Source of the DNA: an uncultured Methanobrevibacter sp.
GTDB lineage: Archaea; Methanobacteriota; Methanobacteria; Methanobacteriales; Methanobacteriaceae
DNA: 46,346 bases
NCBI GenBank assembly: GCA_902794475.1
Contig: CADBHR010000007.1
Span: 1-46,346 of the forward strand
Direction of reading: 5' to 3'
Part shown: piece by piece, positions 8,809 to 41,769 of the stretch
Layout of the letters: the number at the start of each line of letters is the position of its first letter
Position numbering within the stretch: the first letter of the stretch is position 1
Made by a program: the position numbers and the translations under genes
The notes under the pieces: model-generated
The model's database searches: none
What the model was told of the DNA's origin: nothing
The model's input: only the letters and a program-made list of their open reading frames with translations

Positions 8809-8855
8809 AATTTCATGCCATATTTTCTATTTTTCAATTCTTCTGATGATACTTA

Positions 8856-8882: not shown

Positions 8883-8926
8883 ATATTCTATACATTTAGC
8901 CAATTTTTCATGTTCAAATTGGTGCG

Positions 8927-12871: not shown

Positions 12872-12880
12872 GTGATTTAA

Positions 12881-15800: not shown

Positions 15801-17368
15801 TGAGAATCAACACAAAAATTAAACTCAATATAACTTCACTAAATGAGGCCAACAATCCGGTAAACGTTAAGTTAATGGTCCTTGATTTGGATGGCAATCC
15901 CGTTAAAAGCGGATGGATCAATCTGGATATGAACGGGGATTTATATGCTGTTGAGGTTGCAGATGGTATGGCAGAAATCAATCATACCTTCTTAAGCACA
16001 GGATTCAAATCAATCAATGCAATCTTTGATGACGTATACCTCTACAATTCATCAAGCGCTGCTGAAACCTTGAACGTTTCAAAAATCAAGGTCAACATGT
16101 CCTTAAAATATGTTGTTGATAAAACATCTGTCGCTTTTGGAATTAATCTTGGAGATGCAGTCAAGGAATTTGAGGTAATCATCCATGTAAACGGCACAGA
16201 TTACAATGCCACATCAAGAAATGGGCTTGCAGTATGTGAAATTAAAGACCTTGATTATGGCACATATGAATATAATGTGAAGTTCATAAGCGATATCTAT
16301 GAGGCCAGCGAATGCAACGGCGAGTTTAACATCACCGTTCACAAAACCCAAATAATCGTTTCGGATGTTGATGTGTATTATAATGGAGGTTATGTCGTCG
16401 AGCTGAAGGATATGTTTGGGGATGCAGTTCCTAAAAGACAGCTTAATCTTACTGTAAATGGAAAAACTTACAGCCAAACAACAGATGATTGCGGAATTGC
16501 CGTTTTCAACATTGCTTTGCAGACAGGAGAATATTCGGCTAAAATCTCATTTGGCGGCGATGATGATTACTGCAAGTCACAGCTGACAACTGTTCTCAAT
16601 TCCAAATCAACAATAGATTTAAAATCCAATGTCTATGCATTCAATTCCAGATATATCGTTGTTGTTTATGATTCCAATGGGAATGTGCTTGCAAACATGA
16701 ATGTTCAAATAATTTTAAACGGAGTCAATTATGAGATGTATAGTGATGCCAATGGCCAAGTTTCATTTAACATCAATTTAAGTCCGGGCAGTTATGGGGT
16801 TAGGATAACCAATCCTACTTCCGGCGAGGTCAAAACTCACTCAATTAATGTCATAAAGAGAATATCTCAGAACAGCGATTTAAAAATGTATTATGGGGCA
16901 GGAAAGGTTTATAAGGTTAGGGTTTGTGATGATAACGGCAATTTCAAAGCGGGCCTTAACGTAAAGTTCACTGTTGGCGGCAAAAATCATTACTTAAAAA
17001 CCGATAAGAACGGTTTTGCATCATTAAAAATTAACCTGAAGCCTGGAAAATATAAGGTCTATGCAGAATATAATGGATTTAAGGTATCAAATAAGATAAC
17101 CGTCAAGTCAACACTGATTACTAAAAACATCAAGGTCAAAAAGGGAAAAACCATCAGATTCACTGCAAAACTTCTAAACAAGAACGGAAAAATCCTTAAA
17201 AATAAAAAAGTCACATTCAAGTTCAAAGGCAAAACTTATAAACTTAAAACTAATAAAAAGGGTATTGTTACTTTAAAGATTGCCAAAAAATATAAGGTGG
17301 GAAAACATTCCATTGTCACCAGTTATGGCAAATTAAAGATTAAAAACATTATTCGAATTAAAAGATAG
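12881..17368 (+). CDS. Adhesin-like secreted C1 cysteine peptidase
   Basis: 1495 residues; second gene of the operon, nine bases after the previous stop, with the SD GGTGATTT just ahead of the ATG. Signal peptide through PSVFGADN; beta-helix to about residue 400 (GGAIYC, GGAIYL, GGAIAW); C1 peptidase with Gln in VKDQM, Cys431 in GNCWAF, His574 in NHAVALVGWDD and Asn600 in KNSWGANWG; lectin-like region to about 805; about seven Ig-like modules; and the conserved lysine-rich end (VKKGKTIRFTAKLL). The disulphide Cys that precedes the catalytic Cys in papain is replaced (NGGNCW), as in all four copies, so the family is adapted to lack that bond. Most similar to the gene at 17370. Role inferred: exported, wall-associated protease or adhesin. 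Confidence 0.93.
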   Translation: MLKNKLLLLFSIVFISLLLIPSVFGADNETDILDSSSDTQPIGNDIYFDANASDDEGNGTIDHPYKNLRDGEITDNDVVHLKNGNYDFLQFSTYRNISIIGEDASDTVIRGSGGVLIGNSRLFLANVTICKLNILNQGDLIASNVIFTNSSALSNSQKGTSCGGAIYCARSNYNVYLTNCSFVNNRASCGGAIYLNGGILEATDCSFIKNTASNYGGAIAWEANYLNGNRIILNRSRFSNDVALNDAGGVIYLKYGQLVGDDLNISNCRGSFGGAFTLLSSNVTLTNVLAFNNYAQYDGGVIYQIYGNLTLNNSFLSHNHAKNGAGLFISDLNMLSVNNVSFVNNTADLLAGAFYSLVNDLYEFENITYINNSAFEHNDLLRQDNMTIIFSSGNYSMYNHIISNSTLPSYYSSLDEGYVTSVKDQMNGGNCWAFAALATLESAILKASGTELDLSEENMKNLASIYSHYGWSMDTNWGGRGNMAFGYLASWLGPVLEKDDKYNDISVLSPVLDSILHVQNMLFLNKTSNDDLDSIKKTIMDYGTVYAPIYMYSHYDSTVKRYVQYYNGFLPGNHAVALVGWDDDFLIPGAPGKGAWIAKNSWGANWGDDGYFYVSYYDNSCPALGDGEGAIAFIFNDTMRYDKNYQYDIAKTDYLFNTTSTVWYKNIFTATDSEYLAAVSTYFEKATHWDLTVNVNNVSRAMKSGFSLPGYYTLNLDELIPLDFGDVFEIIFKITVDGDAGVPISEIISLNNIFYGENISFISHDGSSWEDLFNLTWEYPDHTYNSQVACIKAFTVLNPINTTLELSIENRTDYSADIIAHVLNQWGYPCSGNVTFNVGNQTYVIKSVNGIAKKHIDLINGRLSAEFNAVGYISSGVELELHNPLVETNIELIIDDYYNPLNITAIIRDSNSDYVKFGHVTFIIDGEEYTVKVSNGTAKLENINVLPLKLNISAFYADSFYYQSCNITQPIEMLRINTKIKLNITSLNEANNPVNVKLMVLDLDGNPVKSGWINLDMNGDLYAVEVADGMAEINHTFLSTGFKSINAIFDDVYLYNSSSAAETLNVSKIKVNMSLKYVVDKTSVAFGINLGDAVKEFEVIIHVNGTDYNATSRNGLAVCEIKDLDYGTYEYNVKFISDIYEASECNGEFNITVHKTQIIVSDVDVYYNGGYVVELKDMFGDAVPKRQLNLTVNGKTYSQTTDDCGIAVFNIALQTGEYSAKISFGGDDDYCKSQLTTVLNSKSTIDLKSNVYAFNSRYIVVVYDSNGNVLANMNVQIILNGVNYEMYSDANGQVSFNINLSPGSYGVRITNPTSGEVKTHSINVIKRISQNSDLKMYYGAGKVYKVRVCDDNGNFKAGLNVKFTVGGKNHYLKTDKNGFASLKINLKPGKYKVYAEYNGFKVSNKITVKSTLITKNIKVKKGKTIRFTAKLLNKNGKILKNKKVTFKFKGKTYKLKTNKKGIVTLKIAKKYKVGKHSIVTSYGKLKIKNIIRIKR

Positions 17369-17369
17369 G

Positions 17370-20300
17370 ATGGGTTTTGTGTTAAAACGTAAATTATTGC
17401 TTTTATCAGCAATATTCTTAATTTTACTGGTTATGCCATCAGTATTTGCACAGGAAAATGCTACTGACTGTGTTGAATCCAGTGTGGATGCTCACACAGT
17501 TTCCAGTGATGTTTACTTCGACAGCAATGCCACAAATGACCATGGCGAGGGAACAGCAGATGACCCTTATAGGGAATTGCGTGACGGCAGAATACTTGAC
17601 AATTCGGTTATTCATCTTAAAAATGGTGAATATCAGCTTTCTCAAATCACTTCCCATAAAAACATTTCAATCATAGGTCAGGATGTCACAAAAACAATCA
17701 TCCGGGGAAATGGCGAAAGATTGACTGTTGATGAGCGTTTTGTTATAGCGAATGTTACATTCTGCAATCTGAACATAATGAATCAGGGAAATATGTTTGC
17801 TACAAATGCAATTTTTGCCAACTCTAGCGCAATCGAAAAGGGTCACTACGGAAACAGTTTGGGAGGGGCCATTTACTGTGTAAATGACAATCACAATGCT
17901 TATCTGACAAACTGCACATTTGTCAACAACAATGCGGGATGCGGTGGTGCGATATATCTTAACGGAGGAATTCTTGAACTCACCGATTGCGTTTTCATAA
18001 ACAACACTGCAATGAATTATGGCGGAGCCATTGCAGGTGAGTCAAAATATTCCAAAGGCCCTAAGCTTACAATAAATCGCTCCCGATTTGTCAATGACGA
18101 TTCGATTAATAATGCGGGAGGTGCGATATATTTAAAATCCGGAACCTTGGTTGCAGATGATTTGAATATTTCCCGTTGCGACGGCACTCTTGGAGGTGCT
18201 TTTGCCTTTCTGAAATCTTATGTCAGTTTGAATAATGTTTATGCTTTTGATAATTCTGCAAAATATGAAGGCGGAGTTATATATCAGATTTATGGTAATT
18301 TGACACTCTCCAATTCGCAATTTCTGAAAAACAATGCAAGAAATGGTGGAGGTCTCTTCATTGATGGCTCCTATCTTTTGGATGTCATCAACGTTTCATT
18401 CCAAAACAATTCAGCCACATTGCTTGGAGGGGCATTCTATTCACTCACTAACGATTATTTTGATTTCGAGAATGTCACTTACATAAACAATACTGCTTTT
18501 GAGTTTGATGATTTGTACAGGCAGGATAATATGTCCGCAATATTTTTAAGCGGCAACTATGCATTATACAATCATATAACTGATGATTCTCCACTTCCGG
18601 CCTATTACAGTTCTGTTGATAATGGATATGTGACTCCAGTTAAAAATCAGCAGGATGGGGGCAATTGCTGGGCCTTTGCTACATTGGCCACTCTCGAATC
18701 AGCAATCTTGAAGGCTTCAGGGGAGGAAATTGACCTGTCCGAAGAGAACATGAAAAACTTGGCATCCCTCTACTCCCATTACGGTTGGTCAATGGACACC
18801 AATGAGGGAGGTTATATTAATATGGGATTAAGTTACCTTGCCAGCTGGTTGGGTCCTGTTTGTGATTCTGATGAGGAATACCATGGATTTACGGTATTGT
18901 CTCCTGTGCTGGATGGAATCATGCATGTTCAGAATATCATGTTTTTGAAAAGATCCAGCTATTCTGATAATGATGAAGTAAAAAGGGCAATCAGGGATTA
19001 TGGTGCGGTATACGCTCCAATTTATATGATGGCTTATTATGATTTCACCGCTAAGAAGTATGTGCAGTGCTTTAGGGGAAATCATGCCGGCGACCATGCC
19101 GTTGAGCTGGTTGGATGGGATGATAATTTTCAAATTTCCGATGCTCCCGGCAAAGGTGCATGGATAGCAAAGAACAGTTGGGGCACTGACTGGGGCAATA
19201 ATGGTTACTTTTACGTTTCATATTTCGATAACTCTTGCATTAAACCTGGCGAAAATGAAGGCGGATATGTATTTATATTTAATGATACAATGAAATATGA
19301 TAAAAATTACCAGTATGATGTAGCTAAAACAGATTACTTTCTCAATTCCACAAAGACTGTTTGGTACAAGAACATTTTCACCGCAACAGACAGCGAATAT
19401 CTGGCTGCTGTTTCAACATACTTTGAAAAAAGCACCAATTGGGAGATGACCGTCAAAGTCAATGACGCTTTGAAGACAGTAAAATCAGGAAATTCTCATG
19501 CAGGATACTTCACTCTGGATTTGGGCCAGCTGATAGCGATGAATGCAGGTGATGTTTTTGAAATAATGTTTAAGATTACTGTCGACGGCGATGCAGGCGT
19601 TCCGATTTCAGAAGCCATCAGCTTAAATAATCGTTTTTATCATGAAAACATTTCTTACATCAGCTATGATGGCAAAAACTGGAAAGACATGTTTAATATT
19701 AGCTGGGAATATCCTGACCACATCTATGAATCACAAGTGGCATGCATAAAGGCATTCACTATCTTAAACCCGATTAACGCAACAATCTCATTGACCTATG
19801 AAAACAAAACATCCGACAGGATTACAATGGTTGCGAATATCGTGAATCAGTGGGGTTATCCTGTCAATTCAGGCAATGTGAAGTTCAGGGTTGGTGATGA
19901 AACATATGTTCTGGCAATAAATAACGGTGTTGCCAAAAAGGAGATTGTCCTTCAATCAGTTAATGTCACAGCTGAATTTAATCAAGTCGGATATAATCCT
20001 GCCATGGCTCATGCCGAATTGATAAATCCTATGGTCAATACAATCATGACACTGAACGTCACAGGCGAGCACAATCCGATAAACATCACTGCAACTGTTG
20101 TTGATGAATACGGCAATCCAGTTAAATGCGGCAATGTTGCTTTTGACATTGGAGGCATCAATTATATTGTTGATGTCGTGAATGGAACTGCTAAGCTAGT
20201 GAATATAATAGCGTCCCCTTTAAAATTAACCGTACATGCTATCTATAATGATTTGTTCCAATACAATTCCTCCCGTGCTGATGAATCTGTTGAACTGTCA

Positions 20301-21860
20301 CTTATCAGTACAAAAATTTCTCTTGACATAATAACCAATGAATTTAACAATCCGGTTAGGATCATTGCACATGTCATGGATTTGAATGGCACTCCTGTGG
20401 AATACGGAACAATTGCATTTTACATGTCAAATGAACTGGTTAAGTTAAGTGTGGTGAATGGAACAGCAGAAATTAACCACACATTCAGGCAAAGCGGAGA
20501 CAATACAATTTATGTGACATTCTATGACAATGCTATTTATAACTCCTCCATTTACAGTGAAACCATATCAGTTTCAAAAATGAAAGTAAACTTGACTTTC
20601 GACATTTCAATTGATGAAAATAATGCTTATATGTCAATTGGAATTAAAGATTCTGCTCGGGGCTTTGTTGTTAAAATTAAGGTCAATGATGATGATTACA
20701 CCTATTCATCAACAGAATCATATGTGAGATGTGAACTTAAAAATCTCAAAAAAGGTTCTTATAACTATATCGTTGAATTGGTCAGTTCAATTTATGAGGC
20801 AGATAATCTTGTGGGTACATTCAACATCACTCATCAAAAAACCCAGATTGTTGCATCCAGCGCTTCACTTTATTATAATGGTGAATACTCATTAATTTTG
20901 AAGGATGAATCAGGAAACATTATTGCTGACAGGGATGTCTATTTGACAGTCAACGACCAGACATTCAAAAAGAGAACTGATGGTCAGGGAAAGGCAGTAT
21001 TCAATATCGCCGCTCCAAGTGGAAGCTATGCGATTGACATTGATTTCATTGGTGATGACGAGTACATTAAATCATCAAAAAATACATATGTGACTGTCAA
21101 GTCAACCGTTGAATTCAAGACAAATAAATATGCGCTCAACTCTAAATACTCAGCAACATTGAGGGATTCAAAAGGCAATCCGTTGAAGAATAAGCAGGTT
21201 CAGATTGTTTTAAATGGAGTCAGCTATAGATTGAATAGCGATGCAAACGGGCAAATCTCACTAAATGTCAACTTGAATCCTGGAACCTACACAGCACAAA
21301 TCACAAATCCCGGTACCGGTGAGGTCAGGACTCAAAAGATAAGTGTGGTCAAAAGGATAACTCAAAACAAGGACTTGACAATGTATTATGGTGCAGGCAA
21401 AGCCTATAAGGTCAAGGTGGTTGACGATTATGGTAAAGCCGCTAAAAAACTCAAGGTGACATTCAAAATCAGCGGCAAAAAGCATTATGCCTACACAGAC
21501 ACTAACGGTTATGCTTCCCTGAAGATTTCTAAAAAACCAGGAAAATATGCCATAACTGCAGAATACAAAGGATTTAAGGTGTCAAACAAAGTAACCGTCA
21601 AGTCAACAATTGTTACAAAGGACATCAAGGTCAAAAAATCAAAAGCAATCAAGTTCAAGGCTAAACTCCTCAACTCCAAAGGCAAGATCCTGAAAAATAA
21701 GAAGATAACCTTCAAGTTCAAGGGAAAAACCTATAAGGTCAAAACCAACAAGAAGGGCATTGCGATTTTGAAAATCACTAAAAAATACAAGAAGGGAAAA
21801 TACACAATAACTTCCAAATATGGAACACTGAAAATAAAAAATAGTATAAGGATTGTATGA
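17370..21860 (+). CDS. Adhesin-like secreted C1 cysteine peptidase
   Basis: 1496 residues; last gene of the operon, one base after the previous stop. The GTG at 17379 gives MLKRKLLLLSAIF, which aligns with MLKNKLLLLFSIV of the preceding paralogue, and is a good alternative to the ATG at 17370. Signal peptide through PSVFAQEN; beta-helix with GGAIYC, GGAIYL and GGAIAG rungs; C1 peptidase with Gln in VKNQQ, Cys433 in GNCWAF, His576 in DHAVELVGWDD and Asn602 in KNSWGTDWG; lectin-like domain; Ig-like modules in the same order as the preceding gene; lysine-rich C-terminus (VKKSKAIKFKAKLL). Its stop lies three bases from the stop of the opposing thymidylate synthase gene, so there is no room for a separate terminator. 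Confidence 0.93.
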   Translation: MGFVLKRKLLLLSAIFLILLVMPSVFAQENATDCVESSVDAHTVSSDVYFDSNATNDHGEGTADDPYRELRDGRILDNSVIHLKNGEYQLSQITSHKNISIIGQDVTKTIIRGNGERLTVDERFVIANVTFCNLNIMNQGNMFATNAIFANSSAIEKGHYGNSLGGAIYCVNDNHNAYLTNCTFVNNNAGCGGAIYLNGGILELTDCVFINNTAMNYGGAIAGESKYSKGPKLTINRSRFVNDDSINNAGGAIYLKSGTLVADDLNISRCDGTLGGAFAFLKSYVSLNNVYAFDNSAKYEGGVIYQIYGNLTLSNSQFLKNNARNGGGLFIDGSYLLDVINVSFQNNSATLLGGAFYSLTNDYFDFENVTYINNTAFEFDDLYRQDNMSAIFLSGNYALYNHITDDSPLPAYYSSVDNGYVTPVKNQQDGGNCWAFATLATLESAILKASGEEIDLSEENMKNLASLYSHYGWSMDTNEGGYINMGLSYLASWLGPVCDSDEEYHGFTVLSPVLDGIMHVQNIMFLKRSSYSDNDEVKRAIRDYGAVYAPIYMMAYYDFTAKKYVQCFRGNHAGDHAVELVGWDDNFQISDAPGKGAWIAKNSWGTDWGNNGYFYVSYFDNSCIKPGENEGGYVFIFNDTMKYDKNYQYDVAKTDYFLNSTKTVWYKNIFTATDSEYLAAVSTYFEKSTNWEMTVKVNDALKTVKSGNSHAGYFTLDLGQLIAMNAGDVFEIMFKITVDGDAGVPISEAISLNNRFYHENISYISYDGKNWKDMFNISWEYPDHIYESQVACIKAFTILNPINATISLTYENKTSDRITMVANIVNQWGYPVNSGNVKFRVGDETYVLAINNGVAKKEIVLQSVNVTAEFNQVGYNPAMAHAELINPMVNTIMTLNVTGEHNPINITATVVDEYGNPVKCGNVAFDIGGINYIVDVVNGTAKLVNIIASPLKLTVHAIYNDLFQYNSSRADESVELSLISTKISLDIITNEFNNPVRIIAHVMDLNGTPVEYGTIAFYMSNELVKLSVVNGTAEINHTFRQSGDNTIYVTFYDNAIYNSSIYSETISVSKMKVNLTFDISIDENNAYMSIGIKDSARGFVVKIKVNDDDYTYSSTESYVRCELKNLKKGSYNYIVELVSSIYEADNLVGTFNITHQKTQIVASSASLYYNGEYSLILKDESGNIIADRDVYLTVNDQTFKKRTDGQGKAVFNIAAPSGSYAIDIDFIGDDEYIKSSKNTYVTVKSTVEFKTNKYALNSKYSATLRDSKGNPLKNKQVQIVLNGVSYRLNSDANGQISLNVNLNPGTYTAQITNPGTGEVRTQKISVVKRITQNKDLTMYYGAGKAYKVKVVDDYGKAAKKLKVTFKISGKKHYAYTDTNGYASLKISKKPGKYAITAEYKGFKVSNKVTVKSTIVTKDIKVKKSKAIKFKAKLLNSKGKILKNKKITFKFKGKTYKVKTNKKGIAILKITKKYKKGKYTITSKYGTLKIKNSIRIV

Positions 21861-31903: not shown

Positions 31904-31965
31904 TATAAAATATAATTATTAATACTTAAATCTTTTAAGTGACAATTCAAAATTGAGTGAAAAAT

Positions 31966-32538
31966 ATGACAAACGAAGACTTTGCAAAAAAGATAAAAGA
32001 CATTAGAGAAAGACAAAACATGTCAATTGAAGACCTGGCCGAGAGAAGCGGCGTAAAGCTTGAAGTATTACAGGCCATGGAAGATGGAGAAGTTATTCCA
32101 TCCCTTACTCCATTAACAAAAATGGCAAGGGCATTAGGCGTAAGGCTGGGCACATTCCTGGACGACACACCTGAACTCGGACCTGTTGTCACAAGAGGTG
32201 GCGTAACCGAAAACTCACTTTATTTCTCTGGAAGGGAAGACGTGACCAACGCAACCAACCTTGAGTTCCACTCTTTAGGGGCAGGAAAGATTGACAGAAA
32301 CATAGATCCTTTCTTAATCGACATTGAGTTTGAGGAAGGCGAAAAGGAACTTTCATCTCACGAAGGAGAAGAGTTCATCTATGTTTTAGAAGGCGAAATC
32401 GAAGTAATCTATGGAAAGGACACATTCACTATAGGGGAAGGCGACACAATATTCTATGACTCAGTAGTGCCTCACCACCTACATGCTAGCGGCAACGACA
32501 AGGCAAAGATACTTGCTGTGCTCTACACTCCATACTAA
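31966..32538 (+). CDS. HTH (XRE family) transcriptional regulator with cupin domain
   Basis: 190 residues from the ATG at 31966, preceded by GAGTGA five bases upstream; a GTG nine bases earlier (31957) is also open. Residues 1-65 form an XRE-type helix-turn-helix (FAKKIKDIRERQNMSIEDLAERSGV, then PLTKMARALGVRLG). Residues 110-190 form a cupin_2 barrel (SSHEGEEFIYVLEGEIEV, GEGDTIFYDSVVPHHL), with His residues that could bind metal or a small ligand. Such proteins sense a metabolite through the cupin and often regulate a neighbouring operon. The nearby broken acyl-CoA synthetase is the natural candidate target, and the inverted repeat upstream suggests autoregulation (inference). Confidence 0.93.
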   Translation: MTNEDFAKKIKDIRERQNMSIEDLAERSGVKLEVLQAMEDGEVIPSLTPLTKMARALGVRLGTFLDDTPELGPVVTRGGVTENSLYFSGREDVTNATNLEFHSLGAGKIDRNIDPFLIDIEFEEGEKELSSHEGEEFIYVLEGEIEVIYGKDTFTIGEGDTIFYDSVVPHHLHASGNDKAKILAVLYTPY

Positions 32539-32560
32539 ATATAATTGAGGGCTTGATAAT

Positions 32561-32674
32561 ATGTTTGAAATATCACAAATGACAAAGGACAATGCTGTAA
32601 TTAAATTTTTCACTCGTGATTTGGGATTGTTGCGTTTGCAAAACTATTATTTGAGCCAAAATTTGTTGAATTAA
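32561..32674 (+). CDS. Possible 37-residue small protein
   Basis: Short frame from ATG 32561 to TAA 32674 ([20 protein letters not shown] at the start). A GAGGG about 11 bases upstream could serve as SD. It fills the gap between the regulator and the acyl-CoA synthetase and would be part of the same transcript. No family is recognised; it may be a leader peptide, a remnant of a gene, or chance. Confidence 0.3.
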
Positions 32675-32696
32675 AAAAATTAAGGAGTTAATTATT

Positions 32697-33209
32697 ATGA
32701 GTGAATTATTTACAGAACTTCCATTAGGAAAGTTTTTCGAATCAATGGTTGAAAAACAGCCTGACCATGAATTTATCGTTTATCCGGACAGAAACTTAAG
32801 ATTTACATACAAGGAATTTGATGAAAGAATTGATAACCTGGCAAAGGGAATGCTGGCTATTGGAATTGAAAAGGGAGACCATGTGGGCATTTGGGCAAAG
32901 AATGTTCCCGAATGGCTTACCTACATGTTTGCAACCGCAAAGATCGGTGCGACAATAGTGACAGTCAACACAGCATACCAGTCCCATGAGCTGGAATATG
33001 TGCTTAAGCAATCAGACATGAAGGCATTGGCAATGACTGACGGTTTCAGGGACACCAGCTATTTTGATATCATAAATGAGCTTGTTCCAGAACTTAAAAG
33101 CTGTGCAAGGGGCCATCTTGTTGCTGAAAGATTCCCTAGATTGAAATTCATTTTCCATGTCGGCCAGGAAAAGCATCCAGAGAATCAAGGATTCTGTTAC
33201 ACAGCATGA
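32697..33209 (+). pseudogene. AMP-forming acyl-CoA synthetase, N-terminal part (broken gene)
   Basis: Start of an acyl-CoA synthetase/AMP-ligase, which activates a carboxylic acid as its CoA ester via an adenylate. It covers the N-terminal alpha/beta region ([53 protein letters not shown]). The family sequence is followed up to FHVGQEKHP near residue 158. Then the frame runs into a short unrelated tail and stops. The remainder is in another frame from about 33175. ATG start with AAGGAG at 32681-32686 upstream. Regulator, small ORF and synthetase probably form one transcript. Confidence 0.85.
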
Positions 33210-34299
33210 CGTAATCAACATGCAGTACACATCAGGAACCGAAGGTTTTCCAAAGGGAGTAATGCTAACTAGCCGCAACATCGTAAACGACGGCTACTAC
33301 ATCGGAGAAAACATGAACTACACCGCCAAAGACAGGTTGCTCCTGCAGGTGCCGCTGTTCCACTGTTTCGGAACAGTTTTAGGGGTAATGGCAGTTATCA
33401 CCCATGGGTCAACCATGGTGGTTCTTGAGGAATATGATCCATTGCTTGCGATATCCTCAATCCAGAAGGAAAAGTGCACCTCAATCTACGGTGTTCCTAC
33501 AATGTTTATCGGAATGATGAACCATCCTATGTTTGATATGTTTGACATGAGCTCACTGAGAACAGGTATCATGGCAGGTTCCACTTGCCCTGTTGAAACC
33601 ATGAAGGATGCAATTGAAAAAATGAACATGAAGGAAATCACCAGTGTTTATGGTCTTACCGAAGCCGCACCGGGTTTCACACAGACCAACGCCGCCGATT
33701 CATTCGAGAAGAAAATCAACACTGTAGGACGCAAATTCCCTAATATCGAAGTCAAAATCGTTGATCCCGAAACCGGTGAGGAACTTGGTCCAGGAGAAAC
33801 CGGTGAGATAATGTGCAGGGGATTCAATGTCATGAAAGGATACTACAACATGCCTGAAAAGACCGCCGAAACAATCGAGCCGGACGGATGGCTTCACTCA
33901 GGAGACCTTGCAACAGTCGATGAGGACGGATACTACTCCATTGTAGGCCGTATCAAGGACATGATTATCCGTGGCGGAGAAAACATCTATCCTCGTGAAA
34001 TCGAGGAATTCCTCTTCACCCATGAATGCGTACAGGACGTGCAGGTTGCAGGAATTCCTGATGAAAAGTACGGTGAAATCGTAGGCGCATTCATCATCAA
34101 GGAAGACGGGTTTGACGATGTCACCGAAGCTGATATCCGTGACTTCTGCATAGGTTCCATTGCAAGATATAAGGTGCCTAAATACGTGTTCTTTGTTGAT
34201 GAGTTCCCGCTCACAACCAGTGGAAAAATACAAAAGTACAAACTCGGCGATTTGGGCCTTCAGCTATTGGAGGAGCGCCGTGAAAGAGGGGAATTATAA
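33157..34299 (+). pseudogene. AMP-forming acyl-CoA synthetase, C-terminal part (broken gene)
   Basis: Rest of the synthetase. Homology begins at about [14 protein letters not shown], so the ATG at 33157 is incidental. It keeps the adenylate-forming P-loop [11 protein letters not shown] (the usual second Thr is Glu), the [11 protein letters not shown] motif, [22 protein letters not shown] with the ATP-ribose Asp, the hinge [16 protein letters not shown] and the C-terminal catalytic Lys in LTTSGKIQ. By comparison with the family, about 20-25 residues between the two parts are missing, so this is a deletion whose length is not a multiple of three, not a simple one-base slip. The region is probably not functional as one enzyme unless the assembly is wrong here. 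A T-rich terminator follows at 34311-34322. Confidence 0.85.
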
Positions 34300-34741
34300 T
34301 TCTCCCAAATCTATTTTTTTTTATCAAAAATTTTTCATATTATCTTATCAAAATTGCTCTTTTTTCATCAAAAAACAAAACATTTATATATGATATGCAA
34401 TATAAATTATTATGCACTTTAAAATGTAAATATAATTTAATCACACCATAATTATTGAATTTGAATTTGGACTCTATACGAACTCTTTGACATTGGAGGC
34501 TGATAAAAATGACACCACAGGTAAAATCAACTACTGCATGGAGCGTAGTGTTCTTTTAGACTTATTTGGTTGTTTGGTCATAAATGACATTTCAACCCAT
34601 GACTGGCAACCGTATTATCAATTGATTACCATTTCCCAGACTATCTTATCGAATATTGACACCAGATATTCTCGATTTGTAATCCACACACAGGCCGAAA
34701 GGTCTCTAAAATTTAAACTATCATCATTTAGAGGAAATATA
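34300..34741 (+). other. 442-base interval with promoter, tiny ORF and open leader
   Basis: Holds a T-rich end of the previous unit, a TATA element (TTTATATAT, 34383-34391) and a tiny frame at 34509-34559 (MTPQVKSTTAWSVVFF) preceded by a near-perfect SD, GGAGGCTGAT at 34495-34504. In another frame the sequence is open from a TTG at 34487 straight into the gene at 34742, so an N-terminal extension of that gene is possible. The interval could be a decayed gene start, a leader peptide, or untranslated leader. Confidence 0.4.
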
Positions 34742-35266
34742 ATGGAAATTAAGAAAAATATCAATTTAAACATTAAAAAGACTGTCGAAAACTCCGTATC
34801 TGGAAATGACGAATTTCATTTCTTTGTAGATGAGCTTACATCTGCTGATTACATGCCGACTTATGCCGGCAAGGCGGATGAAAAATATGAATTTAATGAA
34901 ATGGGCGATGAATTCTTTGAATTTTTAGCCAGAAAAGCCAATGAGGATGGAATATACATACGACTTGTATATGCAACTGCCAGTGAAACAGACGGTGAAG
35001 CTGTATTTGAATTGGAATATGGTGGAGCCAAAGATGAATACAGGACAAGGGACATCGATGATGTTCTGGCGTTTGAATTTGCCGACTTTGGAATCAAGGT
35101 AAAGGGAAGCGAAGTGACTTTTGGAGCAACTATTGAAGGGGGTTGCGGGCATACTCCATACTTTGCCGAATTCGGGTCAAATAATGCAAGTGAGAAATTT
35201 ATTTCACTTGAAAATCCTTTAAACAAAAGGATAATATCCATTATGGAGGAGATGATATATGATTAA
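34742..35266 (+). CDS. Protein of unknown function
   Basis: 174-residue acidic, soluble protein from the ATG at 34742, chosen because AGAGGA sits six bases ahead. The same frame is open further upstream to a TTG at 34487 without matching SD. Visible segments: FHFFVDELTSADYMP, a helical FEFLARKANEDGIYIRLVYA, and beta-rich GEAVFELEYGG and GIKVKGSEVTFGATIEGGCG. No signal peptide, membrane segment or catalytic motif is recognised. The last codons overlap a small membrane protein gene at 35259, which is translated from the SD within this gene's end, so the two are translationally coupled and probably functionally linked. Confidence 0.65.
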   Translation: MEIKKNINLNIKKTVENSVSGNDEFHFFVDELTSADYMPTYAGKADEKYEFNEMGDEFFEFLARKANEDGIYIRLVYATASETDGEAVFELEYGGAKDEYRTRDIDDVLAFEFADFGIKVKGSEVTFGATIEGGCGHTPYFAEFGSNNASEKFISLENPLNKRIISIMEEMIYD

Positions 35267-35414
35267 CAGTTTCATTTCAGTTTTGCAATTGATCTTGATA
35301 TTGATTTTAGCCGCCATACTATTGTACATATTGCTGGTTAAGGGAGACAACAATAGGAGTTCCTATCTGATGTTTCTAATAGATTTGTGCATGTTGTGGA
35401 TGGTATTGATTTAA
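35259..35414 (+). CDS. Small membrane protein, 51 residues
   Basis: ATG at 35259 overlaps the stop of the preceding gene by eight bases and is preceded by an excellent SD (GGAGGAGATGAT at 35246-35257). The product is a strongly hydrophobic peptide. LQLILILILAAILLYILLV forms one membrane-spanning helix, a short polar turn KGDNNRSS follows, then a second hydrophobic stretch (YLMFLIDLCMLWMVLI) that could return through the membrane. No family recognised. The strong SD, the stop-start overlap and the next gene nine bases later (35424) argue that it is real. Confidence 0.65.
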   Translation: MINSFISVLQLILILILAAILLYILLVKGDNNRSSYLMFLIDLCMLWMVLI

Positions 35415-35423
35415 AGAGGTTCT

Positions 35424-35786
35424 ATGCAGCTTAATTGGGTCAGATATTCAGAAGAGGTTGTTGAATTTTTAAATGTTGATACATTAAGAGAAATTGACTA
35501 TGGGATTTTGGATTTGTCCAGAATCAAGAATCATGAGCTTAGGGAAGTTCTTCTGTTTTTCGAAGAGCTTTTAACTATGGAATTGAAGGTTAATTACTTG
35601 GAAAATGACACAGGACTTTTCAGGGTTCAGGTTGTTGAAGGCAAATGTTATTATAAGGAATTCGGATATGTTATTGAAGCTGATTCCGTCTGCGAGCTGA
35701 AGGAATTGGTTTTGGAAGAAGACAGAATATGGTATGTGTTTGATGAGATTATGGCATGCAATTATTTGGGGGGTGGTACTCCTTAA
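35424..35786 (+). CDS. Protein of unknown function with a shared ~50-residue domain
   Basis: 120 residues, ATG start with GAGG six bases upstream. The N-terminal half is leucine- and glutamate-rich and probably helical (HELREVLLFFEELLTMELKV). The second half (about 65-113) has GLFRVQVVEGKCYYKEFGY followed by IEADSVCELKELVLEE and a closing WYVFDE. The same pattern, a beta-rich stretch, then K/E-A-x-S-x-x-E-L-x-x-x-V, then a Trp about ten residues later, is seen in the genes at 35850 and 42814. Function unknown; no signal peptide and no membrane segment. Confidence 0.65.
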   Translation: MQLNWVRYSEEVVEFLNVDTLREIDYGILDLSRIKNHELREVLLFFEELLTMELKVNYLENDTGLFRVQVVEGKCYYKEFGYVIEADSVCELKELVLEEDRIWYVFDEIMACNYLGGGTP

Positions 35787-35849
35787 ATAATCAATGTTTT
35801 TGACTGTTGTGTATTTCGACCTTTTAAAATTTAACAATGGAGGTGTGCT

Positions 35850-36221
35850 ATGAAAACATGTCCTAATTGCTCTAAAAAATTAAATGAGACTTTTAAATAC
35901 TGCAATGAATGCGGATCTATCATTGAAAGTGAAGTTGTAGGAGACTTCAAAACAGATTACCTAAATGTATTTGAGATTGAAGATGAATTTGTCTACCTTT
36001 TTTCAGTTAAGGGAAGGCAAGTTGTATTGAAGGCAAATTCCATTGAGGAGTTAAGGGAATTTGTCAAAATCAGAAAGTTCCCATGGAGGGAACCTGAAAG
36101 AAACTTATTGAGCAATGAAGTTTTGCTGACAAAAACGACAAATGACAATTATGGGATAATCGGCGTTTCAACGCTCGAGAGAAATCCTGCATATTCCAAT
36201 TTGGATAAGTTATTCAAATGA
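35850..36221 (+). CDS. Zinc-ribbon protein with a shared ~50-residue domain
   Basis: 123 residues. The N-terminus is a zinc ribbon, with CPNC at 4-7 and CNEC at 18-21 (four Cys, spacing of the zinc-ribbon_2 type found in many archaeal proteins). From about residue 33 follows YLNVFEIEDEFVYLFSVKG, LKANSIEELREFV and FPWREPERNLL, the small domain also found at 35424 and twice at 42814. The strong SD GGAGGTG at 35839-35845 fixes the ATG. The ribbon probably serves protein or nucleic-acid binding; nothing points to an enzyme. Last of the four small genes that begin at 34742. Confidence 0.75.
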   Translation: MKTCPNCSKKLNETFKYCNECGSIIESEVVGDFKTDYLNVFEIEDEFVYLFSVKGRQVVLKANSIEELREFVKIRKFPWREPERNLLSNEVLLTKTTNDNYGIIGVSTLERNPAYSNLDKLFK

Positions 36222-36233
36222 TCACGTTGACTG

Positions 36234-36314
36234 CTGTTTAAGTGGGTTTTTTTTGTTCGTTCATATAATTTCACCTTTAAATCACTCCTTAAATTGCTTT
36301 TCCCACTTAAACAG
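36234..36314. promoter_or_regulatory. 13-base perfect inverted repeat flanking a promoter region
   Basis: CTGTTTAAGTGGG (36234-36246) and CCCACTTAAACAG (36302-36314) are exact reverse complements 55 bases apart. The left arm is followed by a run of eight T, which could end the upstream transcript; the right arm lies about 45 bases ahead of the helicase operon's first start. Either two operator sites for one regulator or the arms of a long RNA stem. Confidence 0.5.
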
Positions 36315-36358: not shown

Positions 36359-37207
36359 ATGATTACCGAAGTTATGATAAACAGACTGGATGAACTTATT
36401 GGAGATTACAACACTCCTTTTTTTAATTACCTTCTTTATTCATATGATTTGACTTTGAATGAATGTGAATGTATAATAAATGAGTTGAAAGATGACATCA
36501 GCTCAAATAGGGTTGTATCAAGCAATATGGTGTCCACCCTGGATGACTATTTCAAATCCAAAGTTGCAGATTTGGAAAAGCAGAAAAAGATGGACTATCT
36601 TTCCGGTCTAATCAGTGAGGATAATGACTTTTACATCAAATACTTGAAAAAATATGATTTGTCCTCTGAGGACATTGGCCTGATATGTCAAAGGGTCGAA
36701 TCCAAAATAATGATGGATAACATAAGTGATTTTGAAATAAAGAGATATCTGGAGTATTACTTTTCAAATTCCCTAAAACAGATTACTTACATTAACGATT
36801 TGAACGGCATTGTAGGCAACAATTACGACACTCTGTTGATTCAAAGCCAGAAGAGGAAGTATCCCATTTTAAGGGACAGAGACATTGTCGACATTGTTTT
36901 CAATATTCATGGTGAAATCATAGAAGCAAAGGAATTCAAAAATGGCATTAAAAATGAATTCAAAAGGCAATGCATGATTCGAAGTGAGGACAAAAAGGCG
37001 AAATGCAAAAAGAATCTCAACAGATTTGTCGAAGGCTGTGGGGACTCCTTTTCAAAGCTGACCAGATTTAAGGGGCTGGACAAAAGGGACGGTGAAATAA
37101 TTGTTTCACAAATCCTGGATGACATATCACAAGGCATGATTCAGCCTGAAATGATTGACGGTGTTTTTATAACCAGGCGTTTCAACGATTACAATGAGAG
37201 ACAGTAG
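36359..37207 (+). CDS. Helical-repeat protein of unknown function, partner of downstream helicase
   Basis: 282 residues, no signal peptide, rich in Asp, Lys and Ile. I read three to four imperfect repeats of about 45 residues, at 21-66 (FFNYLLYSYDLTLNECECII), 91-137 (FYIKYLKKYDLSSEDIGLIC), probably 167-203 (KYPILRDRDIVDIVFNI) and 231-274 (LTRFKGLDKRDGEIIVSQI). Each has a short helix, a K/S-x-D-L turn, and a helix ending in basic and aromatic residues. The pattern suggests a helical solenoid or an array of small helical modules. No SD precedes the ATG and an A/T-rich box lies near 36321-36330, so the mRNA may be leaderless. Its end overlaps the start of the helicase gene by 14 bases, so the two are coupled. 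Confidence 0.72.
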   Translation: MITEVMINRLDELIGDYNTPFFNYLLYSYDLTLNECECIINELKDDISSNRVVSSNMVSTLDDYFKSKVADLEKQKKMDYLSGLISEDNDFYIKYLKKYDLSSEDIGLICQRVESKIMMDNISDFEIKRYLEYYFSNSLKQITYINDLNGIVGNNYDTLLIQSQKRKYPILRDRDIVDIVFNIHGEIIEAKEFKNGIKNEFKRQCMIRSEDKKAKCKKNLNRFVEGCGDSFSKLTRFKGLDKRDGEIIVSQILDDISQGMIQPEMIDGVFITRRFNDYNERQ

Positions 37208-40200
37208 TGTTTTTACCTTTCTTAAAGGCAAATATGATGATTTATATGGCCTGTGCACGGTCATGGAAAAACTGATTGTTTTAAAAAGATACAATCTAGC
37301 CATGGCTGTGGCCAAGGTGATTCTGGATTTGTTCTGCCGCCAGACCAAAAGGGAACTCGTATTTACAATCGACGTTTTCAACGACCCTTCATTGAAGTTG
37401 ACGCAAGATGATTTGAAAAGCGTTCATGAAATACTTTTTGGATATATCTATAATGACTATTTTGTCGGACTGGAAGAGTTTTTGAGGGTTGACTATGAAT
37501 TCGACTTCAGCTTTTTGGGCAAAAATCCCCTAATCACCAATGATGATGTTTACATGATAGCGGATAACCTTGAGGTAAACTCAATTGCACCGTCACTTGC
37601 AGGTAGGGACGGCGACGACTTGATATCCATTGATGATTTGGACGCAGATGAAAAGGAAGATGTTTTAAATCTGGTGGAGGAGAATCTGAACCTATTCATT
37701 AAGGAGCACATGCTCACCCTTGAACTCTTTGACAGTGAAGGAAATCCATTATCGAGGAAGCTCAACTTCGAAGCGGTCAGAAAAACTGACAGATGTGTTG
37801 TTCGAGAGATTCCTCCGGATGTTGAACTTGACGATTTTCAAAGGGGTGCTGTCGAATACCTTGGAAAGCCGCTGGTGATTAATGCGGGCCCAGGTGCCGG
37901 AAAAACTCGGGTTATAATTGAAAGGGTGCTTTACCTGATTGATAATGGAGCGGCGCCGGAGTCAATACTTGTAATCACATTCACAAACAAGGCCGCAGAC
38001 GAATTGAGGGAGCGCTTCAAAAAGGACACCAAACTGGAGCTCAACGTCATAAACCAGATGAGGATAAGCACAATCCACAGTTTCTGCAGGTCTGTCCTTT
38101 CCGATTTTTGCGACATTCCATATAATCTGCTTAAACGGGAATCCGAAAGGAACCTGTTTTTCAACAAGCACAGAAAGGATCTGGGCTTCACAGGCCCTGC
38201 ATTTTTAAGGAATTACGAATCAGGCCAGGTTCTGAAAAAGTATGACGAGTATGCTCTTTTTGAAGTCGATTCACAGGCATTGATTGAACATATCGAGTCA
38301 AAGTACCGGCCAAGCGAGGAGTACCTATCATACATTGACGAGTATTACAAGACACACTCAGACAACCAGTATCCGACAAAAAAGGAAATCAAGGCCCTGC
38401 ATTTCTCATGTGATGTCTACAAGGCACGTTACCTGCAGATTGCCAAATCCTATAAAGACTGGATTGAGCTGATGGAATCGGAACATGTCTGTGACCAGAA
38501 TTATCTACTCATCAAGGCATTGGAGATACTTTCCGATGGGGATAACCTGAAGCAGGTCCAGTACCGCAACGTCTTGATTGACGAGTTTCAGGACACCGAT
38601 GCAATTCAGATGCAGATATTCGAGCACTTGAGAAGCGTTGCCGATACATTCACTGTCGTAGGCGATGCGGACCAGAGCATATACTCATTCAGGGCAGCCA
38701 ATCCAAAGTTCTTCAATGACTACTCCAAAAGCGATGAGTTCGAAAACAGGATACTTGTCAACAATTACCGCTCTACATCGGATATAGTCGATTTCAACGA
38801 AAGATTCATAAGCCAGAAGCGTGCAAATCCGAAGGACCTGAAGGCGGTCAATGAATCCAAGATGCCCGTTTACATGCTTGAAAGCAAAAGGGACGATGAG
38901 GAATACCGTGGACTGGCATATATCATCAAGAACCTGAAAAGCTCAGGCAAAATAGCCAAATACAGTGATGTCTGCATCCTCTTCAGAAGCCATAAGGACA
39001 AGAAGGACATATTGGAGGAATTCGAAAGACAGGAAATTCCATACTACCTCAAGGGAATTGACGATTTGATTTATCAGGATGAGGTCAAGGCGGTTCTTGC
39101 CCTCATTTGGTATATGCTGCCCTTCGACCCGACCCGAATTGCATATTATGGGGATGGAGGCCAGTGGATCAACCTGTCGTCATTCACAGACACATATTAC
39201 GAATCCTCAAAGGTATTCAGGCTGTCGACCAAAACACAGGACATCCTCAATGACATCGAAAGGAGGCATCATGCAAACGTTATAAATATAAAAAGCAGCT
39301 TCAAGCCCCTTGACTCATCGGCAAAATCAACTTCAATAATGGATGTCGTCAGGGATTATGCCGACGACACATTGGAGGAGATGTTCCGGAGGGTGGGAAC
39401 GGTCGATTTGAGCACATATTCACGGGATGAGCTGAAGGGAATCGGAATATCAGACGAGCATGACCTGGACTTTTTCACCAGTCTGAACGAATTGAAATCA
39501 TCATTGGGTGCAGCAGGAATGACCTGCCTTGAGGTCTTCTATGAACTGGTGAGGATAACTGGATTTGCCGATGAGCTTTTCTCAAGAAGCGATTTTGAGG
39601 CCAAGAAGGCAGCCCTTAACCTTGCTTTGATATCTGAAATCATCTCTGATTATGAGAATATCATGGGAAAATATGACCTGGTCGGGCTTTTCAATTATCT
39701 GTACCGTTCCCTCAAGTATTACTCATGCCCAATCAACGAGGAGGAGGACAACTCCCAGAAGGTCCACATTATGACTGTCCACAAGGCAAAGGGACTCGAA
39801 TATCCGGTTGTAATAACCGCATCAATCAAGGACAGGAGCTTTCCTCTGAAATTCTCCGCCCAAAGGAAGGCCCACGTCTTCAACAACTATCCTGTCTATC
39901 CGACCCCCAACAGATTCCTGAAATATAAGATTTCCGAGGACAGGGAGCCTTTCGAGTTTGACCGTGAGGAGGAGAGGGTTGTCTATGTTGCAAACACCCG
40001 TGCCGAAGAGCTTTTGATTCTCTCAACTGTGCTTCCAAGAACTGGAAGCAAGACCCCGCAGGTCCTGAAGGACTATGAGAACGGACTGGTGAAGATTGAG
40101 CCTTTTGACGTATTCAACATGAAGAAGGTAAACTCCCATATGATAAGGGACACCACACTCTTCAACCAAATAGATTTCGAGGACATTCTTGACGATTACC

Positions 40201-40868
40201 TGTTCTGCCCTTTGAGATACAATCTTGAGTGCAACCTCAAGTTCAAAAATCCCAAAAACATAAACAAGTTCATAGACTCCAAGCTGAGGATAATTGTAAA
40301 TCGCCTGCACAACGACAAGTTCGGCACCGACTGGGACAGGGACAGCATTGAAAATCTGGTTTCTGAAGTCATCCGCTCATACTCCTTTGCATCAGGTGAA
40401 AGGAATCTCAAGAAACTATTCAACCATTTCGCTGATTATTGGACAGACTATGGAAAGAACTTTGACGTTTTAAGGACATCCCATCCTGTAAGCCTGGAAG
40501 TTGGAGGATATGACATTAACGGAGTAATCGATTTGATTGTCAGCGACGGCGAAGCGGTGAGCCTTGTCCACTTCATCCGCACACGTGATGAGATGAAAAA
40601 CTACCATTCATTTTATATGGATTTGCTTAGCTATTATGCAATTGCCCTAAAGGAAAGGGAGGATATGGATGTTGAAAACCTGATGCTTTACGTCCTGGAC
40701 GAAGGAAAGCTCTATGAAAGGGAATTCGTTAAGGATGAATTAACATTGGATTATCTTGCCGCTGTGGTTGAGAGGATTTCAGAGGACAACTACTCAAGGC
40801 ATCATGTAGGCTGCGGCGAGTGCGAATTCAACGGTTTGGTCTGTCAAGGCGACAATCCATTTAATTAG
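37194..40868 (+). CDS. UvrD/Rep-type superfamily 1 helicase with degenerate PD-(D/E)XK nuclease domain
   Basis: 1224 residues. The N-terminal 215 residues are helical and not recognised. The SF1A helicase core has Walker A GPGAGKT (Lys237), TFTNKAADELRER, STIHSFC, motif II DEFQD (Asp463/Glu464), GDADQSIYSFRAANP, NNYRS, VHIMTVHKAKGLE and EEERVVYVANTRA. All ATPase motifs are intact, so a 3'-5' DNA translocase is expected. The C-terminal 220 residues match the Fe-S PD-(D/E)XK nucleases of AddB/Cas4 type: CPLRY (Cys1005), GVIDLI (Asp1113) and CGEC plus C at 1207, 1210 and 1217. Where the active site should read D-F-K the sequence is VHFIRT (His1126, Ile1128), so the nuclease is probably inactive. 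Related to DNA repair or defence helicases; which one is open. Confidence 0.9.
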   Translation: MRDSSVFTFLKGKYDDLYGLCTVMEKLIVLKRYNLAMAVAKVILDLFCRQTKRELVFTIDVFNDPSLKLTQDDLKSVHEILFGYIYNDYFVGLEEFLRVDYEFDFSFLGKNPLITNDDVYMIADNLEVNSIAPSLAGRDGDDLISIDDLDADEKEDVLNLVEENLNLFIKEHMLTLELFDSEGNPLSRKLNFEAVRKTDRCVVREIPPDVELDDFQRGAVEYLGKPLVINAGPGAGKTRVIIERVLYLIDNGAAPESILVITFTNKAADELRERFKKDTKLELNVINQMRISTIHSFCRSVLSDFCDIPYNLLKRESERNLFFNKHRKDLGFTGPAFLRNYESGQVLKKYDEYALFEVDSQALIEHIESKYRPSEEYLSYIDEYYKTHSDNQYPTKKEIKALHFSCDVYKARYLQIAKSYKDWIELMESEHVCDQNYLLIKALEILSDGDNLKQVQYRNVLIDEFQDTDAIQMQIFEHLRSVADTFTVVGDADQSIYSFRAANPKFFNDYSKSDEFENRILVNNYRSTSDIVDFNERFISQKRANPKDLKAVNESKMPVYMLESKRDDEEYRGLAYIIKNLKSSGKIAKYSDVCILFRSHKDKKDILEEFERQEIPYYLKGIDDLIYQDEVKAVLALIWYMLPFDPTRIAYYGDGGQWINLSSFTDTYYESSKVFRLSTKTQDILNDIERRHHANVINIKSSFKPLDSSAKSTSIMDVVRDYADDTLEEMFRRVGTVDLSTYSRDELKGIGISDEHDLDFFTSLNELKSSLGAAGMTCLEVFYELVRITGFADELFSRSDFEAKKAALNLALISEIISDYENIMGKYDLVGLFNYLYRSLKYYSCPINEEEDNSQKVHIMTVHKAKGLEYPVVITASIKDRSFPLKFSAQRKAHVFNNYPVYPTPNRFLKYKISEDREPFEFDREEERVVYVANTRAEELLILSTVLPRTGSKTPQVLKDYENGLVKIEPFDVFNMKKVNSHMIRDTTLFNQIDFEDILDDYLFCPLRYNLECNLKFKNPKNINKFIDSKLRIIVNRLHNDKFGTDWDRDSIENLVSEVIRSYSFASGERNLKKLFNHFADYWTDYGKNFDVLRTSHPVSLEVGGYDINGVIDLIVSDGEAVSLVHFIRTRDEMKNYHSFYMDLLSYYAIALKEREDMDVENLMLYVLDEGKLYEREFVKDELTLDYLAAVVERISEDNYSRHHVGCGECEFNGLVCQGDNPFN

Positions 40869-40878
40869 AGGTGTATTA

Positions 40879-41769
40879 ATGAGCTTAAATATTTCTGATG
40901 AACTTAATATGGAAACTCATGAGAACCTGGTGAGATTCAGCGTTGAAGGCACATCCACAAACTGGATGGCCAGTGACGATTTGTTTATCAAAAGGATTGA
41001 TGAGGACAATTTGAACAGGGACCTTTTAGTTGAACACATGAAAAAGGAAATTCAGATCAAGAATCTTCTTGATGAGGCAATCTCCATTTTCAAAACCCAA
41101 AAATTTGCCAAGGCTATTGAAATGCTTGATGAGGTGCTTTTCTATGATCCGGAATATGGTGAGGCTTTGCTTTTTAAATCCTACTGTTTGAGGGGACAGG
41201 GGCATTTTGTAAAGGCCCTTAGGCATTATAAGCGTGCAGTAAAATCCGATGAGTCCCTAAGGGATAATGAATATCACATGGCAATTACTCGCCAGGCCAA
41301 TGAAGAGAGGTCAAATTTCCCAAAACTGAAACTGAACATCTACGCAGGCGATGAGCATTTTGCCCGTGGGGAGTTTGAAATGGCAATTGAAAGCTATGAC
41401 CGGGCACTTGAGGATTCTTCAAAATTCAAGCAAAAGATACTTTCCAAACTCCTCAATAAGAAAGCCACAGCATGCATTAAGTTGAATGATTACGGTGATG
41501 CTTGTGAGTGTTTTGGCAAGTCTCTGGAGGTTGACGGCAATGACTATGCGATTTTTGGCAAGGGCGTTTGTGAATATGAATTGGATTTGGATATTGATTC
41601 AGGATTCAGGAGATGTCTTAGGATTTCAAAGCGCCAGATGCTTCAACAGGCTTTGATTTTAAATGATATGGGGTATCATGAAGAATCGTCAAGGATTGCA
41701 GATTATCTGAGGAAAAACCACTTCAAAAATGATGACATTTATGAGAAGTTGCAGGCACTTATAGATTAA
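40879..41769 (+). CDS. TPR-like protein downstream of helicase
   Basis: 296 residues, ten bases after the helicase stop, with the SD GAGGTG ahead of the ATG, so it belongs to the helicase operon. Residues 1-60 are acidic and not recognised. From about 65 it is helical, with TPR units LDEAISIFKTQKFAKAIEMLDEVLFYDPEYGEALLFKSY, YAGDEHFARGEFEMAIESYDRAL and LLNKKATACIKLNDYGDACECFGKSL in order. It probably acts as a scaffold for a protein complex. It shares TPR style with the gene at 30540 but is not evidently a paralogue. A tightly linked helicase, helical-repeat protein and TPR protein suggest one machine (inference). Confidence 0.85.
   Translation: MSLNISDELNMETHENLVRFSVEGTSTNWMASDDLFIKRIDEDNLNRDLLVEHMKKEIQIKNLLDEAISIFKTQKFAKAIEMLDEVLFYDPEYGEALLFKSYCLRGQGHFVKALRHYKRAVKSDESLRDNEYHMAITRQANEERSNFPKLKLNIYAGDEHFARGEFEMAIESYDRALEDSSKFKQKILSKLLNKKATACIKLNDYGDACECFGKSLEVDGNDYAIFGKGVCEYELDLDIDSGFRRCLRISKRQMLQQALILNDMGYHEESSRIADYLRKNHFKNDDIYEKLQALID

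Follow-up and report, generated by a model that had tools for sequence, protein, structure and literature searches.

Does the gene for a long UvrD-type helicase in an uncultured Methanobrevibacter sp. form one machine with its two neighbors, and what would such a machine do? The window, the whole stretch of 46,346 nucleotides that was analyzed, encodes three closely spaced proteins on the + strand: a 282-residue protein A (36359..37207), the 1224-residue helicase B (37194..40868) and a 296-residue TPR protein (40879..41769). The A and B reading frames overlap by 14 bases, and 10 bases separate B from the TPR gene; these coordinates are confirmed by the list of open reading frames. The original prediction, made from the sequence alone, placed the three proteins in a DNA repair or antiviral complex, with A as a putative substitute for the customary nuclease partner. 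The question has a practical side: rumen methanogens are a target of methane control, and the limits on their viruses are little known.

A and B form an optional two-gene cassette

A and B are adjacent in all 20 genomes with both genes assembled. The pair is carried by 22 of the 67 Methanobrevibacter genomes. A was not found outside the genus in the 151 genomes of the order, barring weak matches (E above 0.001), and a B orthologue without A was seen once, at a contig edge. Thus, the homologues are linked rather than scattered, and the helicase is not conserved alone. Several relatives cleanly lack the pair, and in them the TPR gene lies only 72-206 bp from the upstream resident gene. On the tree of an adjacent gene, the presence and absence of A-B correspond to 8 changes, 6 of which are forced by well-supported branches. 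The strict adjacency and the clean empty sites show that A-B is an accessory, optional two-gene cassette of rumen Methanobrevibacter, and that the unit is a pair and not a trio. The resident upstream flank (31957..36221, + strand) is common to genomes with and without A-B and encodes an XRE-cupin regulator, an acyl-CoA synthetase that is frameshifted in the window, two small proteins and a zinc-ribbon protein. An 81-nt hairpin upstream of A (36234..36314), with a 13-bp covarying stem, is likewise a resident element.

The third gene encodes TPR repeats as proposed (PF07719, E 2e-17), and no CSD/OB match was found in its product. A three-protein complex with the TPR protein as the scaffold would agree with the position of this gene immediately after B in the window and close to the pair in many A-B genomes, and with its presence in 17 of the 22 A-B genomes versus 14 of the 45 without A-B, counted as raw genomes with kinship ignored. 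However, in several of these 14 genomes the TPR gene occupies the same site with A-B cleanly absent. Conversely, no TPR gene follows A-B in G057, the two are on different contigs in G097, and about 1 kb with another gene lies between them in G059. The empty sites and the independent TPR distribution rule out the trio as the unit, and a three-protein complex is unlikely. The TPR gene is part of the resident locus, a neighbor rather than an obligate member of the cassette, contrary to the original prediction.

Protein B retains the helicase and has lost the nuclease

Protein B matches the Pfam UvrD family (PF00580, E 5.9e-57) from residue ~213 onward. The helicase core (residues 210-960, 37821..40073, + strand) has all of its motifs intact, namely GPGAGKT, DEFQDTD, NNYRS, HKAKGLEYP and ANTRAEE. 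The core is preceded by the anticipated extra N-terminus of ~210 residues (residues 1-209, 37194..37820, + strand), a degenerate domain that remotely resembles the N-terminus of the helicase of a sister locus (L032). The latter matches the HEPN-like DUF4145, the R..GN...H motif of which is not kept in B. The C-terminal Cas4/RecB-like domain (residues 975-1224, 40116..40865, + strand) shows a weak PDDEXK_1/Cas4 match at residues 999-1218 (2.5e-4 for PDDEXK_1 and 7e-7 for TIGR00372 cas4). This domain retains the invariant Fe-S cysteines Cys1005/1207/1210/1217 together with D1113 and H1039. B therefore has the SF1 UvrD core and the Fe-S Cas4/RecB-like domain of a UvrD-Cas4-like fusion, with H1126-F1127-I1128 (40569..40577, + strand) in place of the catalytic D-F/Y-K. 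The PD-(D/E)xK site is lost in every aligned orthologue, which bears out the proposal of a dead nuclease.

Comparison of the wider family showed that D-x-K is gone from all 18 A-linked helicases examined (16 aligned orthologues and those of the sister loci L031 and L032) and present in all 18 other paralogues examined. The dead-nuclease helicases form one clade (SH-aLRT 100). The nuclease was retired on the same branch where the new partner A appears, and the role of the partner is therefore directly testable. Within the UvrD-Cas4-like helicase-nuclease family, B would represent a diverged lineage that lost the metal site and gained a partner, a case of a family changing its job.

Loss of the nuclease site and of the N-terminal HEPN-like motif could also mark a decaying, nonfunctional remnant of a helicase-nuclease restriction gene. 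This is highly improbable, because the frames are open in nearly all copies, and the Walker motifs and Fe-S cysteines are invariant among sequences of 60-87% identity. The dN/dS of A-B is about 0.05-0.14 (few unsaturated pairs) and that of the dead nuclease domain alone about 0.1, all well below 1 and indicating purifying selection. Recurrence in 20 genomes under purifying selection shows that the pair is more than a chance association.

Protein A is a helical-repeat protein without a known counterpart

The AlphaFold2 model of A (mean pLDDT 87) consists of four units, each composed of a short helix, a 16-residue helix and a long helix, in accordance with the predicted helical-repeat protein. 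Searches with A gave no fold match among PDB structures (best E 0.6) or viral structures (best E 0.7), ruling out a known fold. No match was found among PDB sequences or PADLOC models either; thus, the neighbor of B is A and not GajA, and the view that A differs from AddB, Gabija and other known partners holds by both sequence and fold. Other candidate relatives were rejected: the match in G118 is an unrelated 352-residue protein, and those in L110 and L111 are one A-like unit inside otherwise different proteins of ~530-600 residues.

RNA polymerase A' fusions in sister loci

The sister members of the dead-helicase clade (L031 and L032) occur in two MAGs from two genera. In both, the gene directly upstream of the helicase gene encodes RNA polymerase A' with an in-frame C-terminal tail, a connection that the original prediction did not anticipate. 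The helicase gene is followed by a TPR-cold-shock (TPR-CSD) gene in L031 and by a GajA-like ATPase gene in L032. The tails comprise 436 and 887 residues and share conserved ends (33% identity); among 152 genomes searched, convincing tails were found only in G073 and G030. The fusion MAGs are incomplete, and one also carries a normal rpoA1, which fits a duplicate, a strain mixture or the native gene. In the G073 assembly, in which a normal rpoA1 was sought, rpoA2 is missing too.

Along the full length of A, the tail shows remote similarity to it. Alignment of A with the C-terminal part of the tails gave z scores of about 3-7 against shuffles. The A profile scored the tails at 26.5 and 21.3 bits, more than any of 400 shuffles or 131 control proteins; the top-scoring control, an unrelated helical protein, reached 18.5 bits. 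The standard HMMER domain E is about 0.01, the hhalign probability is 2% (with two tail sequences only), and single repeat units of A compared with the tail are not convincing alone. In separate models, A and the tail have nearly the same helix order, the tail model having a mean pLDDT of 77 (two sequences) and low confidence in places. Homology between A and the A' tail is thus supported but not proven.

The RNA polymerase link may possibly be incidental, arising from a mobile element that inserts at the 3' end of rpoA1 and the first gene of which is read through. In both fusions the junction lies at the final residues of A', and the A' portion is similar to the rpoA1 of the respective host, as would be expected of fixed-site insertion or of recombination there. 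However, an in-frame tail with conserved ends has been kept directly before the helicase in two lineages of different genera. As a tentative alternative, A and its relatives may form a new adaptor-repeat family through which a UvrD-Cas4 helicase with a dead nuclease is tethered to archaeal RNA polymerase, with A' itself bearing the adaptor in some strains. The result would be a system of transcription-coupled immunity or surveillance that differs from known ones. If the link is functional, the archaeal transcription machinery would incorporate or recruit an immune or repair helicase. In bacteria, such coupling is known for UvrD/PcrA during repair; no description of it in an accessory conflict system was found in the literature searched, and the same holds for the dead-nuclease variant, partner A and the RNA polymerase link.

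Genomic context and possible roles

UvrD-Cas4 fusions have been inferred to be defense components (PMC5704561). Paralogues of B have type IIG and LlaJI restriction genes, Cas10, CARF-HEPN and GajA/AriA/PtuA-like ATPases as neighbors, and one paralogue has a caspase domain. The scanned neighbors in the window encode surface proteins, metabolic enzymes and small proteins, and PADLOC hits downstream of the A-B loci are few. Thus, the related helicases lie amid many anti-phage genes, whereas the locus in the window is not a dense defense island; to that extent, the context would suit the antiviral function in the original prediction. A virus origin was discarded after one IMG/VR scan detected no B on virus contigs.

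We consider it an even call that A-B is an accessory conflict module, probably antiviral, derived from the UvrD-Cas4 family by loss of the nuclease and addition of a repeat adaptor, and perhaps linked to transcription. B would probably load on DNA that is single-stranded or partly unwound and use ATP to move 3'-5', and its dead Cas4-like Fe-S domain would grip rather than cut DNA. A would dock on B and connect it with a further component. In the sister loci, the RNA polymerase A' encoded immediately upstream of the helicase ends in an A-like repeat; the most likely role of A is therefore that of an adaptor, either recruiting B to transcription complexes or coupling it to some other effector. 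Such a module would probably serve in conflict, by recognizing or disrupting invading, actively transcribed DNA. We infer the antiviral role, the binding of A to B and the RNA polymerase tethering alike.

A less favored possibility is that A-B serves as an accessory motor of DNA repair or recombination, without an antiviral role, and might clear stalled RNA polymerase or process breaks with a separate nuclease. The retained helicase, the lost nuclease, the RNA polymerase link in the sister loci, the purifying selection and the sparse defense context in the window would all suit such a motor, and UvrD/PcrA helicases work both in repair and at RNA polymerase. However, a repair gene would not usually be so patchily distributed and leave clean empty sites, and the wider family lies amid anti-phage genes and itself carries caspase and HEPN-like modules.

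Comparison with known systems

Like A-B, Gabija (GajA-GajB) has a UvrD-type helicase beside a partner gene, and GajB models match the helicase core of B. However, the window has no GajA (OLD ATPase-TOPRIM), and B is about twice as long, with a Cas4-like domain. AddAB, RecBCD and AdnAB resemble B in joining a helicase to a RecB-family nuclease domain, whereas in B itself this nuclease is dead. AddB and AdnA likewise contain inactive domains. In contrast to AddAB and RecBCD, A-B has no second large helicase-like subunit, and A is all-helical without similarity to AddB or RecC. TOTE (TPR, OB, TBP, Effector) resembles the sister locus L031 in the TPR-cold-shock protein after the helicase and in the link of the helicase to a transcription protein. 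However, that protein is RNA polymerase A' in the sister loci, and no cold-shock/OB or TATA-binding protein was found among the window neighbors scanned. Hachiman (HamAB) is also a two-protein system of a helicase, which senses DNA, and a partner. Its partner HamA is reported to be the effector nuclease (PMC12278908), whereas no nuclease match was obtained for A, and B belongs to the UvrD-type helicases.

The UvrD-Cas4-like fusions (pfam12705 branch) of the 2017 study of Cas4 phylogenomics have, like B, an SF1 UvrD-type helicase and a C-terminal Cas4-like Fe-S nuclease domain (PMC5704561). The neighboring type III restriction or Dcm/Vsr genes common in that family (PMC5704561) were not seen among the neighbors scanned in the window. 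Within the same archaeal family, the D-x-K of the paralogues is intact and their genes have anti-phage genes nearby, whereas the catalytic residues of B are lost, and A-B adds a dedicated helical-repeat partner and a HEPN-like N-terminal remnant.

Gene layout and distribution of the A-B pair

Three linked open reading frames lie at the places first noted, on the forward strand: a helical-repeat protein (A, 36359-37207, 282 aa), a UvrD-type helicase with a Cas4-like C-terminus (B, 37194-40868, 1224 aa) and a TPR protein (C, 40879-41769, 296 aa), with a 14-base overlap between A and B and a 10-base gap between B and C. The host is a rumen-type Methanobrevibacter: a scan of named genomes gave 17 loci, all of them from Methanobrevibacter MAGs. 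Comparison of 139 genomes of the family showed that the orthologues of B, 61-87% identical and full length where the contig allows, are confined to the window's genus, and that A is distributed likewise. The two genes are adjacent in 20 of 20 genomes having both assembled; two further genomes (G084 and G046) have a single member of the pair, lying at a contig edge. Among the genus genomes of at least 90% completeness and low contamination, A is present in 11 of 37.

Where the contig shows it, the site of the pair is constant, downstream of an XRE-cupin regulator, an acyl-CoA synthetase and small genes. The empty sites (L070-L073, L081, L082 and L093) have the same gene order, with 72-206 bases from the last small gene to the TPR gene. 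On the tree of the neighbouring synthetase gene, the presence of A-B needs eight changes, six of them forced by well-supported branches; even so, its distribution is more clustered than that of shuffled labels. The pair is accessory rather than housekeeping, and a helicase conserved alone as a housekeeping gene was not what the distribution showed.

The proposed trio is reduced to a pair. Because the empty sites keep the TPR gene in place without A-B in several relatives, this gene belongs to the site itself, and it was found in 14 genus genomes without A-B. It is commoner alongside A-B (17/22 vs. 14/45 without), an excess that common descent may explain and that is compatible with an optional role.

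Other features of the site and window

A hairpin of ~80 nt (36234-36314) lies upstream of A and occupies the same place in L051-L056, L060, L061, L063 and L021. All pairs of its 13-bp stem are kept in 11 genomes, with five pairs changed on both sides; the RNA fold has a z of -5.2, and the long loop carries CACCTTT...CTCCTT, the reverse complement of Shine-Dalgarno-like motifs. The hairpin has no Rfam match and no other occurrence in the 1.6 Mb of DNA searched; some sites without A-B have similar stems with other arms. The acyl-CoA synthetase (32697-34299) is split by a frameshift into two overlapping frames, where relatives have one intact gene of 554 aa, and may be a pseudogene or an assembly error. 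In a genome without A-B (G074, L085, reverse-complement 6275-9344), a broken UvrD-Cas4 paralogue directly follows the same synthetase. Three consecutive very large open reading frames (8927-21860; 1314, 1495 and 1496 aa) lie beside other surface-type proteins.

The helicase and its dead nuclease domain

Pfam and NCBIfam place the UvrD-type helicase of B from about residue 210, with a weak Cas4/PDDEXK match at the C-terminal end. Alignment of 16 orthologues and two sister proteins showed intact helicase motifs and, invariant in all 18, four cysteines of a Cas4-like Fe-S cluster, H1039 and D1113. Where the catalytic D-x-K would stand, the window has H-F-I, and none of the 18 proteins keeps either the acid or the lysine, bearing out the predicted dead nuclease. 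Elsewhere in the family, all 18 paralogues examined, ~33-39% identical to B over the helicase region, retain D-F-K or D-Y-K. Since the nuclease-dead proteins form one clade (SH-aLRT 100), the loss is best read as a single event. The dead domain is under purifying selection (dN/dS ~0.1, resting on few pairs since synonymous sites are mostly saturated), and therefore probably retains a role in DNA binding or structure.

The N-terminal extension of B resembles that of the helicase at the sister locus L032 (z 5-7), which matches DUF4145 (E 1.4e-6, above the curated cut-off). DUF4145 is a HEPN-type domain with recorded fusions to UvrD helicases and restriction enzymes (PMC3710099). The R..GN...H motif is present in L032 and lost in B.

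The repeat protein and the RNA polymerase fusions

No family match for A was found in Pfam, NCBIfam or PADLOC. Its AlphaFold2 model (18 sequences, pLDDT 87) consists of a first helix followed by four three-helix repeat units, with no Foldseek match among PDB or viral structures. One A-like unit was seen near the N-terminus of proteins of ~530-600 aa at L110 (1929-3722) and L111 (3126-4715), which by eye also carry a zinc-ribbon-like CxxC pair and a SAP-like segment.

A few bases upstream of two sister helicases, RNA polymerase A' (Rpo1N) is encoded with an in-frame tail. The fusion at L031 (2-4246, forward strand; G073, the window's genus) has a tail of 436 aa and that at L032 (4957-10173, reverse strand; G030, another genus) a tail of 887 aa, each directly before a nuclease-dead helicase. 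Each tail begins right where A' ends. The final ~270 residues of the two are 33% identical and align with A over its full length. Eight orthologues of A compared with this part of the two tails gave z values of 2.9 to 7.1 against shuffles. The A profile scored 26.5 and 21.3 bits with composition correction off, exceeding 400/400 shuffles and 131/131 control proteins (best control 18.5); under ordinary settings the matches are weak (HMMER domain E ~0.01, hhalign probability 2%). The tail model (two sequences, pLDDT 77, one poor stretch) has nearly the same helix order and lengths as A. A and the tail are probably homologous, though this falls short of certainty.

In each fusion the A' part is most similar to the rpoA1 from its own genus, implying that fusion happened twice, or happened once and the host gene later recombined with it. 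An ordinary rpoA1 with rpoA2 is present in G030 as well; the fused and normal copies share 92% DNA identity and their contigs are broken at an identical point, which would fit a duplicate or a strain mixture. One rpoA1 was found in G073, but rpoA2 is missing from the assembly, making the copy count uninformative.

Proposed function and relation to known systems

B would travel 3'-5' on DNA, with its dead domain holding the DNA, and A would couple B to another component, for which RNA polymerase is the leading candidate because of the sister fusions. The accessory distribution and the company kept by the family favour a use against viruses or plasmids; the main rival is that the pair serves repair. 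Genes up to three places from the paralogues include hits to type IIG and LlaJI restriction enzymes, Cas10, CARF-HEPN and GajA/AriA/PtuA-like ATPases, among others; next after the L032 helicase comes a gene for a GajA-like ATPase. Genes downstream of the A-B loci give few defence matches, and the scanned part of the window neighbourhood holds surface proteins and metabolic genes. One paralogue of 1988 aa (G103, L044, reverse-complement 5256-11219) carries a caspase domain at its N-terminus (Pfam E 2e-16), together with a long extension at the C-terminus.

In the open-licence papers searched, no description was found of the helicase branch with the dead nuclease, of the repeat family of A or of the RNA polymerase fusion. 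The helicase family itself is already known, and a case for UvrD-Cas4 fusions as defence components has been made (PMC5704561). A TPR-cold-shock gene lies after the L031 helicase and before the helicase at L046, and this gene is a part in common with the TOTE conflict systems (PMC12458937).
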